Source: Oscillospiraceae bacterium (lineage in GTDB: Bacteria; Bacillota; Clostridia; Oscillospirales; Oscillospiraceae). From it: a stretch of 45,519 nt of DNA. Where the stretch lies: NCBI GenBank assembly GCA_017416325.1, contig JAFQCV010000019.1, forward strand, positions 1 to 45,519, given 5' to 3'. The translations under genes and the position numbers were made by a program. This document shows, piece by piece, positions 5,711 through 45,519 of this stretch. Below the pieces are notes generated by a model. It was given only the letters and a program-made list of their open reading frames with translations. It was not told where the DNA came from and made no database searches. Positions within the stretch are counted from its first letter, which is position 1. Every line of letters starts with the position of its first letter.

Positions 5711-7608
5711 TGCCTCCTGCAAAAATGCGCGGCGATGGCCGCAAGGCAAAAAATCCCGGCAAGACTCTGCTGCGGCTTTTAAGTTATTTGAAAAAATACT
5801 GGTACATACTGATCCTGGTGTTTTTGTGCATTGTTGCCAACGCCATCGCCCAGACCACCGGCTCTGTGGCCCTGGGCAAGCTGGTTGACAACTACATTCT
5901 GCCCATGGTCGCCGCGGGAAACAGCGATTTTGCCCCGGTGCTTCAGTTCCTGCTGGAGATCGCCGGCATCTATGTCATTGGCATGCTGGCATCCTTTGGT
6001 CTGAATTTTTTGATGGTGGGCGTGACCCAAGGCGTCCAAAAGACCATCCGGGACGATATGTTTGTGAAAATGCAGCGTCTTCCCCTGCGGTATTTCGACT
6101 CCACCGCCGCCGGCAACACTATGTCCCGGTTTACCAGCGATGTGGATACCATGCGGCAGATGATCTCTCAGTCCATCCCCCAGACGGTTTCCTCTCTGGT
6201 CACACTGATCGTAGTGCTGTACCGGATGCTCACCACCTCCTGGGTCCTTACCTGTGTGGCTATGGTCACCATTGCCGGTGTGATCCTGGTCACCAAGACT
6301 CTGGCAGGAAAATCCGGAAAGTTCTTCATCGCCCAGCAGCGGTCTTTGGGCGCTGTGAACGGCTACATCGAAGAAATGATCAACGGGCAGAAAGTCGTCA
6401 AGGTCTTCAATCACGAGGAAGTCTGCAAGGAAGAATTTGATAAGCTCAACGAGCAGCTTCGGGTAAACGCTTTTTCTGCCGGCAAATTCTCTAACATGAT
6501 GGGTCCCATCAACAACAACTTAGGCTATGTCCAGTATGCGGTGCTGGCCATTTTCGGCGGCATTTTGGTGGTTTCCAGTGAAGGCGCGATGCTGTCTTTG
6601 GGCAGCTTGATGGCCTTTATGATGCTCAGCAAATCCTTCAACATGCCCATCAACATGATCTCCAACCAGATCAACGCCATCGTTATGGCCCTGGCCGGCG
6701 CGGAGCGGGTCTTCGAACTGATGGACGAAGAGCCTGAGACCGACAGCGGCTATGTGACTTTGGTGAACGCCAAGCTGGACGAAAACGGCCAGATCATCGA
6801 GTGCGAGGAGCGCACCGGCATGTGGGCCTGGCGGCATCCCCACCAGGCAGACGGCTCCGTCACCTACACCCAGCTCAAGGGCGACATCGTCATGGATATG
6901 GTGGACTTTGCCTATGTTCCGGAGAAGCAGGTGCTGTTTGACGTGACCCTCTACGCCCATCCCGGTCAGAAAATCGCTTTTGTTGGCGCTACCGGCGCAG
7001 GCAAGACCACCATTACCAACCTCATTAACCGGTTTTATGACATTGCCGACGGCAAGATCCGCTACGACGGCATCAACATCAATAAGATCCGCAAGCCGGA
7101 TCTGCGCCGCAGCCTGGGCGTGGTGCTTCAGGAGACCAATCTGTTTACCGGTACGGTCATGGAGAACATCCGCTACGGCAAGCTGGATGCCACCGATGAG
7201 GAGTGCATCGCCGCGGCAAAGCTGGCCAACGCCCATGACTTCATCACCCGGCTTCCCAAGGGCTATGAAACGGAGCTTACCGGCAACGGCGCGAACCTCT
7301 CTCAAGGTCAGCGGCAGCTGATCGCCATTGCCCGGGCGGCGGTAGCCGATCCTCCGGTGATGATCCTGGACGAGGCTACCTCCTCCATTGATACCCGAAC
7401 CGAGGTTCTGGTGCAGAAGGGTATGGACGCGCTGATGAAAGGCAGGACCACCTTTGTCATCGCCCACCGGCTCAGCACGGTTATGAATTCTGACTGCATT
7501 ATGGTTTTGGATCACGGCCGGATCATTGAGCGAGGCACCCATGAAGAGCTGATCGCCCAAAAGGGCACGTATTACCGGCTCTACACCGGCGCTTTTGAGC
7601 TGGACTAA
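5710..7608 (+). CDS. ABC exporter subunit B (canonical catalytic residues)
   Basis: Partner half-transporter of 632 residues. An N-terminal basic stretch precedes six membrane helices (about residues 22-330), then the ATPase with Walker A GATGAGKTT, signature NLSQGQRQL, Walker B VMILDEATSSID and H-loop IAHR. The catalytic Glu and His are present, complementing subunit A. The LSQGQ signature is the altered one expected to face the degenerate site. Between membrane domain and ATPase lies an extra segment of about 45 residues (around 350-395, containing ERTGMWAWRHPHQADG), which accounts for the greater length. A strong hairpin follows the stop. Confidence 0.9.
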   Translation: MPPAKMRGDGRKAKNPGKTLLRLLSYLKKYWYILILVFLCIVANAIAQTTGSVALGKLVDNYILPMVAAGNSDFAPVLQFLLEIAGIYVIGMLASFGLNFLMVGVTQGVQKTIRDDMFVKMQRLPLRYFDSTAAGNTMSRFTSDVDTMRQMISQSIPQTVSSLVTLIVVLYRMLTTSWVLTCVAMVTIAGVILVTKTLAGKSGKFFIAQQRSLGAVNGYIEEMINGQKVVKVFNHEEVCKEEFDKLNEQLRVNAFSAGKFSNMMGPINNNLGYVQYAVLAIFGGILVVSSEGAMLSLGSLMAFMMLSKSFNMPINMISNQINAIVMALAGAERVFELMDEEPETDSGYVTLVNAKLDENGQIIECEERTGMWAWRHPHQADGSVTYTQLKGDIVMDMVDFAYVPEKQVLFDVTLYAHPGQKIAFVGATGAGKTTITNLINRFYDIADGKIRYDGININKIRKPDLRRSLGVVLQETNLFTGTVMENIRYGKLDATDEECIAAAKLANAHDFITRLPKGYETELTGNGANLSQGQRQLIAIARAAVADPPVMILDEATSSIDTRTEVLVQKGMDALMKGRTTFVIAHRLSTVMNSDCIMVLDHGRIIERGTHEELIAQKGTYYRLYTGAFELD

Positions 7609-8008: not shown

Positions 8009-8110
8009 GCGAACAGAGTAGAAGATGCCGCGTTAAGTGCCACCGGGACGGGGAGTTGCCCGGAGGACGAAGGAAATTTTCCACGATGGCGTCTTCGCAC
8101 CCGCTGCCCA
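8009..8110 (+). promoter_or_regulatory. THF riboswitch (THF-I class)
   Basis: The leader contains the class hallmarks in order: GAGTAGAAGATG (8016-8027), GCGTTAAGTGCC (8030-8041), GGGACGGGGAGTTGCCC (8045-8061), GGACGAAGG (8065-8073) and GCACCCGCTGCC (8097-8108). It binds reduced folates and precedes a folate S component, its classical target. A linker of about 90 nt follows and ends in a terminator at 8202-8229, suggesting transcriptional control. CCTCCTT at 8121-8127 is complementary to the AAGGAGG ribosome binding site at 8263-8269, so translational masking is an alternative. Binding specificity is from family knowledge; the switching mode is inference. Confidence 0.9.
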
Positions 8111-14468: not shown

Positions 14469-14484
14469 ATTTCAGTACGAAACA

Positions 14485-14557
14485 GGACCCTTATGACTGA
14501 CGGATCAGTGGAGCACCACACGGAGTAAGGGCTGATATTTGCCGACCGTCTGGGCAC
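14485..14557 (+). promoter_or_regulatory. ZTP riboswitch (pfl motif)
   Basis: P1 pairs CCCTTA (14488-14493) with TAAGGG (14526-14531) around the conserved TGACTGACG ... GTGGAGCACCAC ... CGGAG core. The 3' subdomain GCCGACCGTCTGGGCA (14541-14556) matches the diagnostic CCGCCUGGGC of the class. It senses ZMP/ZTP, which builds up when 10-formyl-THF runs short. The last bases of the aptamer are also the left arm of the terminator at 14552, so ligand binding and termination are mutually exclusive, the usual genetic ON switch. It controls the purine operon that follows. Confidence 0.9.
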
Positions 14558-14590
14558 ACTTTTCCTTTCTTGGATAAGTGCGCCCTTTTT
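14552..14590 (+). terminator. ZTP-riboswitch expression-platform terminator
   Basis: Arms 14552-14561 and 14576-14585 (one A-C mismatch) followed by TTTTT. The left arm overlaps the conserved GGGCA of the aptamer. Confidence 0.8.
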
Positions 14591-17306: not shown

Positions 17307-17382
17307 AATTAGGAATGAGAAATGAGGAATTAGAAATTTTTCTATGCCTCAGCTCCTAATTCCTAACTCCTAATTCCTAATT
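17307..17382. repeat. AATTAGGAAT/ATTCCTAATT inverted-repeat element, empty copy 1
   Basis: Left arm contains AATTAGGAATGAGAAATGAG; right arm contains repeated CTAATTCCTAA; a ~20-nt AT-rich loop separates them. It lies between purF and purM, immediately before the purM ribosome binding site. The same arms flank the four-helix-bundle gene at 21174. Confidence 0.82.
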
Positions 17383-19860: not shown

Positions 19861-19939
19861 AATTAGGAATAAGAAATGAGGAATTATTTTTCCGAATCCT
19901 CGCTACCAATTCCTAATTCCTAACTCCTAATTCCTAATT
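19861..19939. repeat. AATTAGGAAT/ATTCCTAATT inverted-repeat element, empty copy 2
   Basis: Same design and orientation as 17307-17382: AATTAGGAATAAGAAATGAG left arm, ~25-nt middle, and repeated TTCCTAA/CTCCTAA right arm ending at the purH ribosome binding site. Confidence 0.82.
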
Positions 19940-19955: not shown

Positions 19956-21140
19956 ATGAAAACTTTTGAGTTAAAGTACGGCTGCAACCCCAATCAGAAG
20001 CCTGCTTCTGTGTATATGCATGACGAAACCGAGCTGCCCTTTGAGATCCTCAACGGTCGCCCCGGCTACATCAACTTTATGGATGCCCTGAACTCCTGGC
20101 AGCTGGTCAAGGAGCTAAAGGAAGCTACAGGCATGGCCTGCGCCACTTCTTTCAAGCATGTTTCTCCCACCTCTGCCGCTGTTGGCAAGGTTCTCCCTCC
20201 GGAGCTGAAGAAGGCCTGCTTCGTAGAAGACATCCAGGGTCTGGACGAGAATCCCCTGGCCTGCGCCTATGTCCGCGCCCGTGGCACGGACCGGATGTGC
20301 AGCTTTGGCGACTGGGTCGCCCTGTCTGACGAGTGCGACGCCCTCACCGCTTCTTTGATCGCGCCCGAGGTTTCTGACGGCGTCATCGCTCCCGGCTACA
20401 CCGAGGAAGCTCTGGCGATCCTGAAAACTAAGCGCAAGGGCAGCTACAATGTGGTTAAGATCGACCCCAACTACATTCCCGATGCCCAGGAGCGCAAGCA
20501 GGTCTACGGCATCACCTTTGAACAGGGCCGCAACAATTTTAAGATCGGCAACCATCTGCTGGAAAACATCGTTACCGCCAACAAGGACCTGCCGGAAAGC
20601 GCCAAGGTCGACCTGATCGTAGCCCTGATCACCTTGAAGTACACCCAGTCTAACTCCGTTTGCTATGCTTACGACGGTCAGGCTATCGGCGTTGGCGCCG
20701 GTCAGCAGAGCCGTATCCACTGCACCCGGCTTGCAGGCTCCAAGGCAGACACCTGGTTCCTGCGCCAGCATCCCAAGACCCTGGCTCTGCAGTTTAGAGA
20801 GGATCTGGGCCGGGCAAACCGGGACAATGTTATCGATGGCTACATCAATGGCAACGAAGAGGATGTCTGTGAAGATGGTATCTGGCAGAACTACTTCACC
20901 GTCCGTCCCGAGCGGCTGACTGAAGAAGACAAGAAAGCCTGGCTGTCCACCCGTCAGAATGTGGCTCTGGGCAGCGACGCCTTCTTCCCCTTCTCCGACA
21001 ACATCAAGCGCGCTTATGCTTCCGGCGTTAAGTACATCGCCGAACCCGGCGGCTCCATCCGGGACGACCTGGTTATTGAAGAATGTGACAAGAAGGGCAT
21101 GGTCATGGCCTTCACCGGTATGCGCCTGTTCCATCACTAA
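19956..21140 (+). CDS. purH: AICAR transformylase (stand-alone PurH transformylase)
   Basis: Formylates AICAR with 10-formyl-THF to FAICAR; 394 residues, matching the single-function clostridial enzyme and lacking the N-terminal IMP cyclohydrolase domain. YGCNPNQKPA at the start, SFKHVSPTSAA (about 66-76, with the catalytic Lys-His pair), GVIAPGY, and near-C-terminal SDAFFPFSDNI and GGSIRDD match the family. ATG at 19956 is chosen by TTGGAGG; a TTG at 19941 overlaps it. Pairs with purO. Confidence 0.94.
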   Translation: MKTFELKYGCNPNQKPASVYMHDETELPFEILNGRPGYINFMDALNSWQLVKELKEATGMACATSFKHVSPTSAAVGKVLPPELKKACFVEDIQGLDENPLACAYVRARGTDRMCSFGDWVALSDECDALTASLIAPEVSDGVIAPGYTEEALAILKTKRKGSYNVVKIDPNYIPDAQERKQVYGITFEQGRNNFKIGNHLLENIVTANKDLPESAKVDLIVALITLKYTQSNSVCYAYDGQAIGVGAGQQSRIHCTRLAGSKADTWFLRQHPKTLALQFREDLGRANRDNVIDGYINGNEEDVCEDGIWQNYFTVRPERLTEEDKKAWLSTRQNVALGSDAFFPFSDNIKRAYASGVKYIAEPGGSIRDDLVIEECDKKGMVMAFTGMRLFHH

Positions 21141-21143
21141 GCC

Positions 21144-21175
21144 AATTAGGAATTAGAAATGAGGAATTAGGAATT
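21144..21175 (+). repeat. Left arm of the gene-carrying inverted-repeat element
   Basis: AATTAGGAATTAGAAATGAG followed by GAATTAGGAATT, nearly identical to the left arms of the two empty copies. It starts three bases after the purH stop. The arm supplies purine-rich AGGA sequences immediately before the start of the four-helix-bundle gene. Confidence 0.85.
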
Positions 21176-21530
21176 GGGTTCGAACGAAGTGAAAGTAAAA
21201 AGTCTTGTCTTTGCAAAAAGAATTGTCCAAGCATATCAGTATCTGTGTAAGGACAAAAAAGAATTCATTCTTTCAAAACAACTGCTTCGTTGCGGAACCA
21301 GTATTGGTGCAAATGTTGCAGAAGCCCAATACGGAATCAGTCGGAAGGATTTCTTAAACAAACTGTATATCGCCCTGAAAGAATGTGCGGAAACCTTATA
21401 CTGGCTGGAATTGCTTGCTTCTTGTCATTATTTATCCGAGTCGGAATACCAATCCCTATATGCAGATTGCAATGAATTAAGAAAACTTCTTTCCTCTATT
21501 ACAAAAACCATACGTGATACTCTGCCGTAA
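21174..21530 (+). CDS. Four-helix-bundle protein (23S rRNA intervening-sequence protein family)
   Basis: A 118-residue all-helical protein of the S23/IVS-protein family, structurally related to the Avd proteins of diversity-generating retroelements. The core SKQLLRCGTSIGANVAEA (about 34-51), then SRKDFLNKLYIALKECAET and YWLELL are diagnostic. Family members are encoded in intervening sequences of 23S rRNA genes, but here the gene sits in the purine operon between purH and purD. No ATG is available. TTG at 21174 lies in the repeat arm; GTG at 21189 is an alternative. Its composition is more AT-rich than its neighbours, suggesting acquisition with the element. Molecular function unknown; no reverse transcriptase nearby. 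Confidence 0.85.
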   Translation: MGSNEVKVKSLVFAKRIVQAYQYLCKDKKEFILSKQLLRCGTSIGANVAEAQYGISRKDFLNKLYIALKECAETLYWLELLASCHYLSESEYQSLYADCNELRKLLSSITKTIRDTLP

Positions 21531-21544
21531 TTATATTCTGCAAA

Positions 21545-21594
21545 GGATTAGGAGTAGGATAAATTCCTAACTCCTAATTCCTAATTCCTAATTT
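21545..21594 (+). repeat. Right arm of the gene-carrying inverted-repeat element
   Basis: GGATTAGGAGTAGGAT, then repeated TTCCTAACTCCTAATTCCTA units, complementary to the left arm at 21144-21175 and matching the right arms of the empty copies. It ends at the purD ribosome binding site (TTTTGGAGG). Confidence 0.85.
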
Positions 21595-21606: not shown

Positions 21607-22872
21607 ATGAAGCTTTTAGTAGTCGGCGGCGGTGGCCGGGAACACGCCATTATCCGCTCTTTGAAGAAAAATCCCGATGTAGAAACCATTTACGCTGCCC
21701 CCGGTAACGGCGGCATCGCGCAAGACGCCATCTGCGTGCCCATTGGCGCAACGGAAATTGAAAAAATCGTGGCTTTTGCCACCGAGAATAAGATCGACTA
21801 CGCAGTCGTCGCCCCGGATGATCCCCTGGTCCTTGGCTGTGTGGACGCCCTGGAAGAAAAGGGTATCCCCTGCTTCGGCCCCCGGGCCAACGCTGCCATC
21901 ATCGAAGGCAGCAAGGCTTTCTCCAAGAATTTGATGAAGAAGTACGGCATCCCCACCGCTACTTACGAGATCTTCACTGACCTTCCCAAGGCTCTGGAAT
22001 ATCTGGAAACTGCCCCCATGCCCACCGTGGTCAAGGCCGACGGTCTGGCGCTGGGCAAGGGCGTCATCATCGCCCAGACCCGGGAAGAAGCCAAGCAGGC
22101 CGTTACCGACATGATGGCTAACGCCAAGTTCGGCAAATCCGGCTCCACGGTGGTCATTGAGGAGTTCCTCACAGGCCCCGAGGTTTCCGTCCTCGCCTTT
22201 ACCGACGGTAAGGTAGTGCGTCCCATGGTATCCTCCATGGATCACAAGCGCGCCGGGGACAACGATACGGGTCTGAACACCGGCGGTATGGGCACCATCG
22301 CCCCCAACCCCTACTATACCGAGGATATTGCCAAGCAGTGCATGAAAGAGATCTTCCTGCCCACCATCCGGGCCATGAAGAAAGAAAAGCGCACCTTCAA
22401 GGGCTGCCTGTACTTTGGCCTGATGCTGACCCCCAATGGCCCCAAGGTCATTGAGTACAACTGCCGGTTCGGCGATCCCGAAACCCAGGTGGTGCTGCCC
22501 CTGCTGAAAAGCGATCTTCTGACCATTATGATGGCATGTACCAATGGCACTTTGGCCAAAACCCCTGTCCGCTTCGCCAAAAAGCACGCCTGCTGCGTCA
22601 TTAAGGCATCCAAGGGCTATCCTGAAAGCTACAAAAAGGGTTATAAGCTGAGCATGTCCGACCGGGCAGCCAGGGCTACCTTTGTTGCCGGCGCTAAGCT
22701 GGAGAACGGAAAGCTGCTCACCGCCGGCGGCCGGGTCACCGGCACCACCGCCGTCCGGGGCACTCTGGAGGACGCCATTACCGCTGCCTACCGGCTCAGC
22801 GCCGGTGTCAAATTCGCCAACGCCTACAGCCGCAGCGATATCGGTCAGAAAGCACTGGCTGCTAAGAAATAA
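21607..22872 (+). CDS. purD: Phosphoribosylamine--glycine ligase
   Basis: ATP-grasp enzyme joining phosphoribosylamine and glycine to GAR; 421 residues. VVGGGGREHA at the N-terminus, KADGLALGKGV (about 139-149), NTGGMGTIAP (about 224-233) and EYNCRFGDPETQ (about 287-298) are hallmark motifs. TTTTGGAGG precedes the ATG and directly follows the repeat arm. It uses the unstable product of PurF from the same operon. purL starts 12 nt downstream. Confidence 0.96.
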   Translation: MKLLVVGGGGREHAIIRSLKKNPDVETIYAAPGNGGIAQDAICVPIGATEIEKIVAFATENKIDYAVVAPDDPLVLGCVDALEEKGIPCFGPRANAAIIEGSKAFSKNLMKKYGIPTATYEIFTDLPKALEYLETAPMPTVVKADGLALGKGVIIAQTREEAKQAVTDMMANAKFGKSGSTVVIEEFLTGPEVSVLAFTDGKVVRPMVSSMDHKRAGDNDTGLNTGGMGTIAPNPYYTEDIAKQCMKEIFLPTIRAMKKEKRTFKGCLYFGLMLTPNGPKVIEYNCRFGDPETQVVLPLLKSDLLTIMMACTNGTLAKTPVRFAKKHACCVIKASKGYPESYKKGYKLSMSDRAARATFVAGAKLENGKLLTAGGRVTGTTAVRGTLEDAITAAYRLSAGVKFANAYSRSDIGQKALAAKK

Positions 22873-33825: not shown

Positions 33826-33862
33826 GAATTATCATTCCTAATTCCCAACTCCTAATTTCCAA
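33826..33862. repeat. Partial ATTCCTAATT element (right arm only)
   Basis: CATTCCTAATTCCCAACTCC followed by TAATTTCC resembles the right arms at 17307, 19861 and 21545 and sits just before the pyrophosphatase ribosome binding site. A recognisable left arm is missing, so it is probably a decayed copy. Confidence 0.65.
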
Positions 33863-41617: not shown

Positions 41618-41800
41618 CCTGCCAATTCCCGTTTATCGGGCAGGCGGTGCCTGCCAATGGATAATGAAAAATGTATAATGGATAATGAAGGAGTCGCCTT
41701 CGGCGACATACTTAAAATCATTTTCGAAGAAAATACCACAATTGTCAATTATCAATTATCCATTATTCATTCGTGCGTCAGCACGATAAATGGCAATTTT
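41618..41800. repeat. Composite palindromic element, family R2 (copy a)
   Basis: Outer ends TGCCAATTCCCGTTTATCGG and CGATAAATGGCAATTTTA resemble R1 ends. The inner core (about 41653-41770) has GGATAATGAAAAATG and GTATAATGGATAATG on one side and CAATTATCAATTATCCATTA on the other, around a GTCGCC-TTC-GGCGAC mini-hairpin and an ATTTTCGAAGAAAAT palindrome. A core of the same type occurs inverted at 45363-45519. Confidence 0.8.
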
Positions 41801-45362: not shown

Positions 45363-45519
45363 TGCCAATTCCCGTTTATCGGGCTGATGCCCGAATGGAT
45401 AATTGATAATTGATAATGGATAATTGTGGTATTTCCTTCGGAAATGATTTAAAATCGTCGCCTTTGGCGACACAATCATTATCCATTATACATTTTCCAT
45501 TATCCATTGGCAGGCGCAG
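45363..45519. repeat. Composite palindromic element, family R2 (copy b, cut by window end)
   Basis: Begins TGCCAATTCCCGTTTATCGG like 41618-41800. The core runs in the opposite direction: AATGGATAATTGATAATTG, TTTCCTTCGGAAA, GTCGCC-TTT-GGCGAC, then ATTATCCATTATACATTT and CCATTATCCATTGGCAGGC. The right end lies beyond the window. Confidence 0.78.

Follow-up and report, generated by a model that had tools for sequence, protein, structure and literature searches.

Inverted heptamer arrays around S23/IVP genes in a purine operon and elsewhere: a candidate REPIN/RAYT-like system with a four-helix-bundle protein

Introduction

According to the accessible part of its description, the intervening sequence (IVS) of the Coxiella 23S rRNA is 428 nt long and carries three tandem heptamers (two in some strains) of the sequence GACAGAT before an S23 gene (PMC4990558). 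Excerpts of other accounts place IVP genes in insertions in the 16S and 23S rRNA of CPR bacteria (PMC11270868) and within cas loci (PMC3936711). The S23/IVP protein domain is termed functionally uncharacterised in the available text of the CPR account (PMC11270868).

Heptamer repeats are known from bacterial genomes, with the sequences GGGAATC and GGGGAYT in Xanthomonas and Nostoc (PMC4692102) and TAACTGA in Beggiatoaceae (PMC4679880). The majority of the GGGAATC arrays of Xanthomonas have four units, and 70 and 75 convergent inverted pairs were reported from two genomes, as far as the consulted excerpt goes (PMC4692102). For the spread of the TAACTGA repeat, the excerpt states that "no mechanism is evident" (PMC4679880). 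The accessible parts of these two papers name no protein associated with the repeats, and those of the accounts of the Coxiella IVS, CPR bacteria, cas loci, Xanthomonas and Beggiatoaceae do not join the observations to each other. No report linking an IVP protein with heptamer arrays was found in literature searches of open-licence PMC.

REPIN/RAYT systems, in the portion of the source available, combine a resident gene with dispersed short inverted doublets that are matched to it (PMC3116915). Here we describe a comparable arrangement in a 45,519-nt stretch of DNA from an Oscillospiraceae bacterium, referred to as the window. The window contains an element that belongs to a widespread class of small elements. 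Such an element is composed of an array in which a 7-bp unit is mostly repeated four or five times, an S23/IVP gene of about 350 bp, and the same array inverted. The architecture occurs in several phyla, the units of the two arms are reverse complementary, the heptamer varies with the protein, and gene-less copies exist. We estimate a probability of about two in three that the elements form a REPIN/RAYT-like system, the protein of which is a four-helix bundle and not a transposase. RAYTs are tyrosine transposases and their repeats are palindromes, whereas the elements described here consist of heptamer arrays and encode a four-helix bundle. The resident protein of the window is not a Y1 transposase, and the system is therefore not a member of REPIN/RAYT itself.

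Results and discussion

The S23/IVP element of the purine operon

The purine operon of the window includes, by Pfam matches, genes for AIR synthetase, a formyl transferase, an IMP cyclohydrolase-like protein, AICAR transformylase, purD, and an FGAM-synthase-like protein. The gene between the AICAR-transformylase gene and purD (Table 1) encodes an S23/IVP protein, which matches PF05635 with an E-value of 2.5e-30 and TIGR02436 with 1e-32 in profile searches. The scores are above the curated cut-offs (112.6 bits versus 24, and 105.3 versus 33.8), and 23S_rRNA_IVP was the only Pfam family matched at E-values up to 1. The window element shares the protein family and the complementary ends around the S23 gene with the 23S rRNA IVSs (S23p frame) such as that described in part for Coxiella, but it is positioned outside rRNA genes. 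A short motif check of the fetched loci identified no IVP gene inside rRNA; its two matches both lay in long purine-operon stretches of relatives.

The earlier note on this DNA described an IVP gene between inverted AATTAGG arms together with gene-less copies. This description is confirmed and the sites that it named hold, as does the placement of the translation start at the arm edge. A TTG start is also present in the copies of the AATTAGG element in two congeneric genomes (G011 and G031). The genome of the window contains four IVP genes.

Table 1. Heptamer elements and neighbouring genes in the window
Feature	Position	Strand	Remarks
Gene-less element	17307..17382		arms 17307-17338 and 17351-17382; precedes AIR-synthetase (purM-type) gene; spacer differs among relatives
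Gene-less element	19861..19939		left arm decayed, right arm 19908-19939; precedes AICAR-transformylase gene; bare site in G063 and G012
AICAR-transformylase gene (PF01808)	19956..21140	+	upstream neighbour; purH of the earlier note
Left arm of gene-bearing element	21144..21175	+	AATTAGG heptamers, five ARTK cores, 32 nt
S23/IVP four-helix-bundle gene	21174..21530	+	118 aa; TTG start within last core of left arm
Right arm of gene-bearing element	21562..21593	-	left-arm heptamers in reverse complement, five cores, 32 nt; directly precedes purD ribosome-binding site
purD (PF02844/PF01071/PF02843)	21607..22872	+	downstream neighbour
Lone right arm (half copy)	33833..33857	-	AATTAGG arm
Gene-less element	41656..41771		AATGGAT type, a second heptamer family; two arms of 32 nt
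Gene-less element	45394..45508		AATGGAT family; two 32-nt arms

Gene-less and partial copies in the window

With up to one mismatch, the window contains 22 copies of the sequence AATTAGGAAT, whereas 100 shuffled sequences contained 2.1 occurrences on average and 8 at most. The arms are tandem heptamers, and 9 of the 11 arms in the window are exactly 32 nt long, corresponding to four heptamers and a closing four-base core. The half copy, which the earlier note had placed at 33826-33862, is present as a lone right arm of smaller extent. The two AATGGAT-family elements are additions to the elements noted previously, and other contigs of the same genome hold further AATTAGG copies. The gene-less elements resemble MITEs in having terminal inverted repeats, no gene, and many copies. 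No target-site duplication was seen by eye at the AATTAGG copies of the window's genome, the relatives of which are too diverged for a strict test. The purine-rich arm had been thought to come first relative to transcription. However, an inverted repeat is identical on both strands, so that this order cannot depend on transcription, and the constant feature is the head-to-head order of the arms instead.

A putative nested arrangement is located at positions 6050-6265 of locus L018 (contig 79 of genome G000), where an AATTGAC-type inverted array is enclosed by an AATTAGG pair. Three Rfam matches are present in the window, a THF riboswitch (8012-8108), a ZMP/ZTP riboswitch (14483-14562), and a Gut-1 RNA (2363-2436), and none of them overlaps the heptamer elements.

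A seven-base register flanks S23/IVP genes in several phyla

Among the first IVP loci read, many had flanking inverted heptamer arrays, and the heptamers were various. In total, 101 congeneric genomes were surveyed, 68 with IVP genes and 33 without. A set of 192 IVP matches was reduced to 186 by filters for flanks, completeness, and Ns (the row of the window duplicates locus L009), and to 179 non-redundant loci by the removal of near copies. The set consists of 91 loci from this genus, 76 from several phyla, and 12 from viral contigs. The genus loci are part of the congeneric matches (29 loci and 60 further stretches were fetched), and the 76 loci from several phyla derive from the best 80 of 586 relatives, picked by protein similarity without regard to arrays. 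Only two phage records match IVP.

Arrays with a period of seven (at least 16 of 21 matches) are located directly upstream of the gene in 117 and directly downstream in 121 of the 179 loci. In contrast, control windows about 0.9-2.3 kb away contain such arrays in 22 of 646 cases, and for periods that are not multiples of seven, at most 4 of 179 flanks qualify. Loci with an array on either side make up 55 of the 91 from the genus, 71 of the 76 from several phyla, and 11 of the 12 from viral contigs. Both arrays reach at least 15 of 21 matches in 115 of the 179 loci, which are the basis of the comparisons of arm pairs. In 102 of the 115 loci, the left unit agrees with the reverse-complemented right unit with at most one mismatch, whereas swapped pairs do so in about 10% of cases.

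The 115 loci contain 67 different heptamers, which can be rotated into the shared register A-R-T-K-N-N-N: A (0.95), A or G, T (0.82), T or G, and three free bases. The likelihood of this register is -401, compared to -448 for the best of 20 letter-shuffled sets of units. The heterozygosity of the free bases is 0.10-0.21 within an array and 0.66-0.71 between elements. The number of cores is exactly five in 126 of the 230 arms, four in 34, and six in 35. The solved relatives 2rld and 2gsc, the latter being the IVP protein XCC0516 from X. campestris, have five chains each, and the Xanthomonas S23 protein is stated to be a homopentamer in the available part of one account (PMC4990558). Each subunit may meet one core.

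The arrays could in principle be heptamer microsatellites that grew by slippage, with the gene there by chance. Array length is indeed variable, up to 14 units, and heptamers are over-represented in some bacteria according to an excerpt (PMC4692102). However, the peak at five cores speaks against this origin, and the inverted pairing together with the match between heptamer and protein refutes it as a full account; the probability of such an origin is minute.

It is also possible to view the element as acting at the RNA level, with the arms forming a stem cut by RNase III, as in the 23S IVS, and with a protein that is incidental or acts on RNA. The ends of the Coxiella IVS form a 28-bp stem that is cut by RNase III in vitro, as the accessible text reports (PMC4990558), and as RNA both gene-less AATTAGG copies (z-scores of -3.4 and -4.2) and one gene-less AATGGAT copy (z-score of -3.8) of the window fold better than shuffled sequences. 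However, in the 38 loci with four units in each arm, the similarity of mirrored units, which would pair in a stem, does not exceed that of unmirrored units (0.895 versus 0.914 mismatches, p = 0.71), which speaks against stem pairing as a conserved feature and against the earlier idea that the arms are conserved for RNA pairing. Furthermore, pairing alone predicts neither the covariation of heptamer and protein nor the usual number of cores, and we consider a purely RNA-level element quite improbable.

A separate clade of IVP genes of the genus (L010, L011, L012, and others) has no flanking arrays, and heptamers occur only in the 450 bp upstream. They are present in both orientations, with short hairpins between them in the loci read. 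Upstream heptamers were detected in 26 of 32 cases. The corresponding numbers were 3 of 30 for regions far upstream, 4 of 33 for downstream regions, and 0 of 35 for shuffled sequences. Three of the four IVP genes of the window's genome are of this type.

Correspondence between protein residues and heptamer bases

Heptamers differ by at most one mismatch in 4% of locus pairs with 40% protein identity, in 31% at 60%, in 62% at 70%, and in 12 of 12 pairs with identity of at least 80%. After correction for overall identity, the first free base, N1, is associated most strongly with residue 53 of the protein (partial r = -0.30, z = -6.5) and N2 with residue 68 (partial r = -0.39, z = -5.6), whereas N3 has no clear partner column in the same screen. 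Some core positions also have partner columns, based on few changes. The mutual information between residue 53 and N1 is 1.157 bits, compared to 0.507 ± 0.061 under a null model in which shuffling was confined to clusters of similar proteins; none of 500 shuffles reached the observed value. Glutamine at position 53 is accompanied by G in 22 of 23 cases, histidine by G in 8 of 9, arginine by C in 13 of 14, tyrosine by A in 14 of 14, glycine by A in 8 of 9, and phenylalanine by A in 5 of 6, whereas cysteine, asparagine, and serine are mixed. In the solved relative 2rld, a Bacteroides thetaiotaomicron protein, the aligned position holds glutamine, for which G would be expected as N1.

The residue-53 rule was transferred between the genus and the other loci. 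Learned from the genus, it gave a prediction for 42 of the 67 other loci, and 26 of these predictions were correct (13 for the majority base, 20 for the nearest protein). In the opposite direction, it covers 44 of 48 loci and is right in 38 of the 44 (12 and 23, respectively). When columns are compared for N1 from the genus to the others, columns 21, 58, 110, 32, and 87 are right in 33 to 29 of 67 loci and column 53 in 29; summed over both directions, column 53 ranks first with 68 of 115, followed by 59, with a median of 30. Across phyla, residue 68 predicts N2 no better than the majority base does, and the same holds for residues 65 and 110.

A hold-out set of 113 genes, mostly from Bacteroidota (the best Pfam scorers), contained 21 usable loci, and there the rule was right in 7 of 17 cases, which is chance level (3 of 3 plasmid loci and 4 of 14 Bacteroidota). 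Arrays are present in only 29 and 37 of the 113 flanks, and 14 of the 21 usable proteins have glycine at position 53. The Bacteroidota proteins are divergent, with 36-42% identity in the seven listed, and most are without arrays. Since the rule failed in these divergent and mostly array-less proteins, a code, if it exists, is a property of the GTSIGAN subfamily and not of PF05635 as a whole. Of 14 plasmid loci listed, eight have a register that is clear by eye; among them L224, L226, L228, and L366 fit the rule and L372 does not. The remaining three, cyanobacterial loci with Ser53, have C as N1, and two of the three proteins are 81-86% identical to a discovery protein. Phylogenetically independent pairs point in the same direction as the rule, but they are too few, and the comparison lacks power when the tree is allowed for.

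The covariation of the sequences strongly suggests that the protein reads its own heptamer sequence-specifically and that residue 53 would meet N1. The five cores of an arm could correspond to the five subunits of a homopentamer. If a four-helix bundle used such a code between residues and bases, it would constitute a different kind of nucleic-acid reader.

Gene-less arrays in genomes with and without S23/IVP genes

A generic four-core pattern has 6898 matches (overlaps included) in the 101 genomes, compared to 1065 for the reversed pattern. The median number of matches is 54 in IVP-positive and 2 in IVP-negative genomes (p = 3e-8, uncorrected for kinship), and the arm search proposed earlier thus shows arrays tracking IVP genes genome-wide. 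Arrays occurring independently of the gene, which would have spoken against the earlier reading, were found in part, as 6 of the 33 IVP-negative genomes have at least 20 matches. In the Nostocales genome G119 (L177), the generic pattern has 1718 and 1578 matches, and the reversed control also has 1035 and 1020.

Individual heptamers follow the matching gene. Arrays of AGATAC occur in 6 of 6 genomes whose purH-purD protein has this heptamer and in 15 of 95 others (p = 4e-5), AGG arrays in 3 of 3 carriers and 21 of 98 others (p = 0.012), and GAG arrays in 5 of 6 carriers and 12 of 95 others (p = 4e-4). Genomes were counted as GAG carriers if a clear GAG unit could be read from both arrays, which applied to six; G056, G081, and G082, which have decayed GAG-like arrays and two of which have matches, were placed among the others. 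The counts include the arms of the element itself, and one of the two AGG matches in G031 is such an arm. Several genomes contain many arrays but no known matching IVP gene, for example G038, with 119 AGG matches (one of its three IVP loci was read), and G090, with 29 AGATAC matches. With such exceptions, the dispersed doublets are matched to a resident gene as in REPIN/RAYT systems.

Clostridium carboxidivorans and its relatives contain a 131-bp MITE-like family with heptamer ends (L231, positions 751-881; copies in G109, G121, and G123). The repeat is near-full length and has the same ends in three genomes of the genus. In a check of its insertion sites, the flank matches fell on different contigs.

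History of copies at shared sites

Gene-bearing copies are located in the same spacer in different species, and their history is unlike that of the neighbouring gene. Elements of three heptamer types occur in the purH-purD spacer: AATTAGG in G000, G011, and G031, AGATAC in six genomes, and an AGTGGAG type in seven loci, one of which (L108) is from a more distant genome. In G042, the spacer contains a gene-less array, and match positions suggest a gene-less AGATAC pair in G019. The element is absent from G063 and G012, the nearest genomes by purD, and from ten more of the spacers shown. The spacer before the AICAR-transformylase gene and that after purD are likewise bare in relatives. Of the 96 genomes in which purD was matched at E ≤ 0.001, in some cases weakly, at least 15 have the IVP gene beside purD by a hand count, so that presence of the same gene in all distant relatives with no empty sites, raised earlier as a counter-indication, is not fully what is observed. 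The differences in presence and absence between orthologous spacers support the description of an IVS-like element with gene-less MITE-like relatives. Its spread through the spacers of one mRNA, as originally proposed, is too narrow for the copies elsewhere, the 67 heptamers, and the gene-bearing copies at shared sites.

The 16 IVP proteins encoded in purH-purD spacers group into one clade (94/88), within which the subclades correspond to the heptamers. A single old insertion in this spacer, inherited vertically, with many losses and with arrays that changed in concert, would account for the single clade and for the copy in the more distant genome. However, monophyly of each of the three heptamer classes is rejected by the purD tree (AU test p = 7e-9, 1.9e-5, and 2e-4; 14 of the 16 rows, leaving out the short L023 and L108 with its very long branch), and the element is missing from the two genomes nearest by purD; vertical descent alone is decidedly unlikely. 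The flanks of further IVP clades are likewise homologous between species on both sides, in components of sizes 7, 6, 4, 3, 3, and 3 and seven pairs, and the heptamers differ in most of these groups. The copies look like repeated entry into the same site, and homologous recombination of short tracts is a possible alternative.

The arrays could also be operators of a regulon, in which an autoregulator binds at its own start and at other operons and the sites are spread by selection and not by mobility. The start of the window gene inside an array, the position of several arrays in spacers beside ribosome-binding sites, and the tracking of the protein by the heptamer fit this model. The complete inverted pairs at unrelated spacers, which differ between related species, and the tree conflict at purH-purD look like insertion instead, and the 131-bp repeat of Clostridium carboxidivorans and its relatives, which has constant ends in three genomes of that genus, also argues against operators. 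We regard a regulon as unlikely.

In relatives, the same spacers of the purine operon (for example in L202, L205, L209, and L210) hold other families of intergenic repeats, such as TCATTGCGAG...CTCGCAATGA palindromes and GGGGGGT blocks.

Proposed mechanism and relation to described systems

In the favoured REPIN/RAYT-like system, mobility might proceed via pairing of two arms by the protein. The protein would bind and pair the arms, and host or other enzymes would copy or move the DNA between them. Gene-bearing copies might then re-enter fixed sites, including those in other species, and gene-less copies would spread in trans, like REPINs around a RAYT gene. No target-site duplication, excision product, or transposition event was found in the genomes compared.

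Gene versions with their own heptamers, together with gene-less repeats, suggest an unrecognised kind of mobile repeat with a reader protein. The pairing of the protein with its own heptamer offers a testable answer both for the uncharacterised domain and for the spread of heptamer repeats. The 23S rRNA IVSs are probably members of the class. The Coxiella heptamer GACAGAT, as given in the consulted excerpt, can be rotated to AGATGAC, which corresponds to the AGAT-core subtype among the arrays analysed here. Unlike the 23S rRNA IVSs, the elements described here are positioned in protein-coding operons and intergenic spacers, their heptamer varies with the protein, and gene-less copies are dispersed. 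The heptamer repeats of Xanthomonas, Nostoc, and Beggiatoaceae may likewise be tied to IVP proteins. More tentatively, and with the odds against it, the elements may constitute a separate class of mobile DNA, present in several phyla and characterised by a non-enzymatic four-helix-bundle pentamer that reads five heptamers per arm, a residue-to-base code, paired arms, a cassette homing to fixed sites, and gene-less copies. If so, the footprints of that class would be the ribosomal IVSs and the unexplained heptamer repeats known from cyanobacteria, Xanthomonas, and Beggiatoaceae.

The Avd protein of diversity-generating retroelements is a distant relative of the window protein, which scores 19.8 bits with DivGenRetAVD, below the cut-off of 80. 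Unlike Avd, the IVP genes analysed here have no association with a reverse transcriptase, and the window element lacks the combination of reverse transcriptase and Avd. The idea, derived from Avd, of a reverse transcriptase acting in trans was rejected: RVT_1 matches are present in 32 of 68 IVP-positive and 20 of 33 IVP-negative genomes (p = 0.21). The genome G011 has AGG arrays and no RVT_1 match, and the single RVT_1 match of the window's genome is located on a different contig from the window.

IVP genes on plasmids (L222, L226, L373, L370, and L371) adjoin genes for helicases and methylases, lie within a type I restriction operon, or are positioned between cas2 and cas1.
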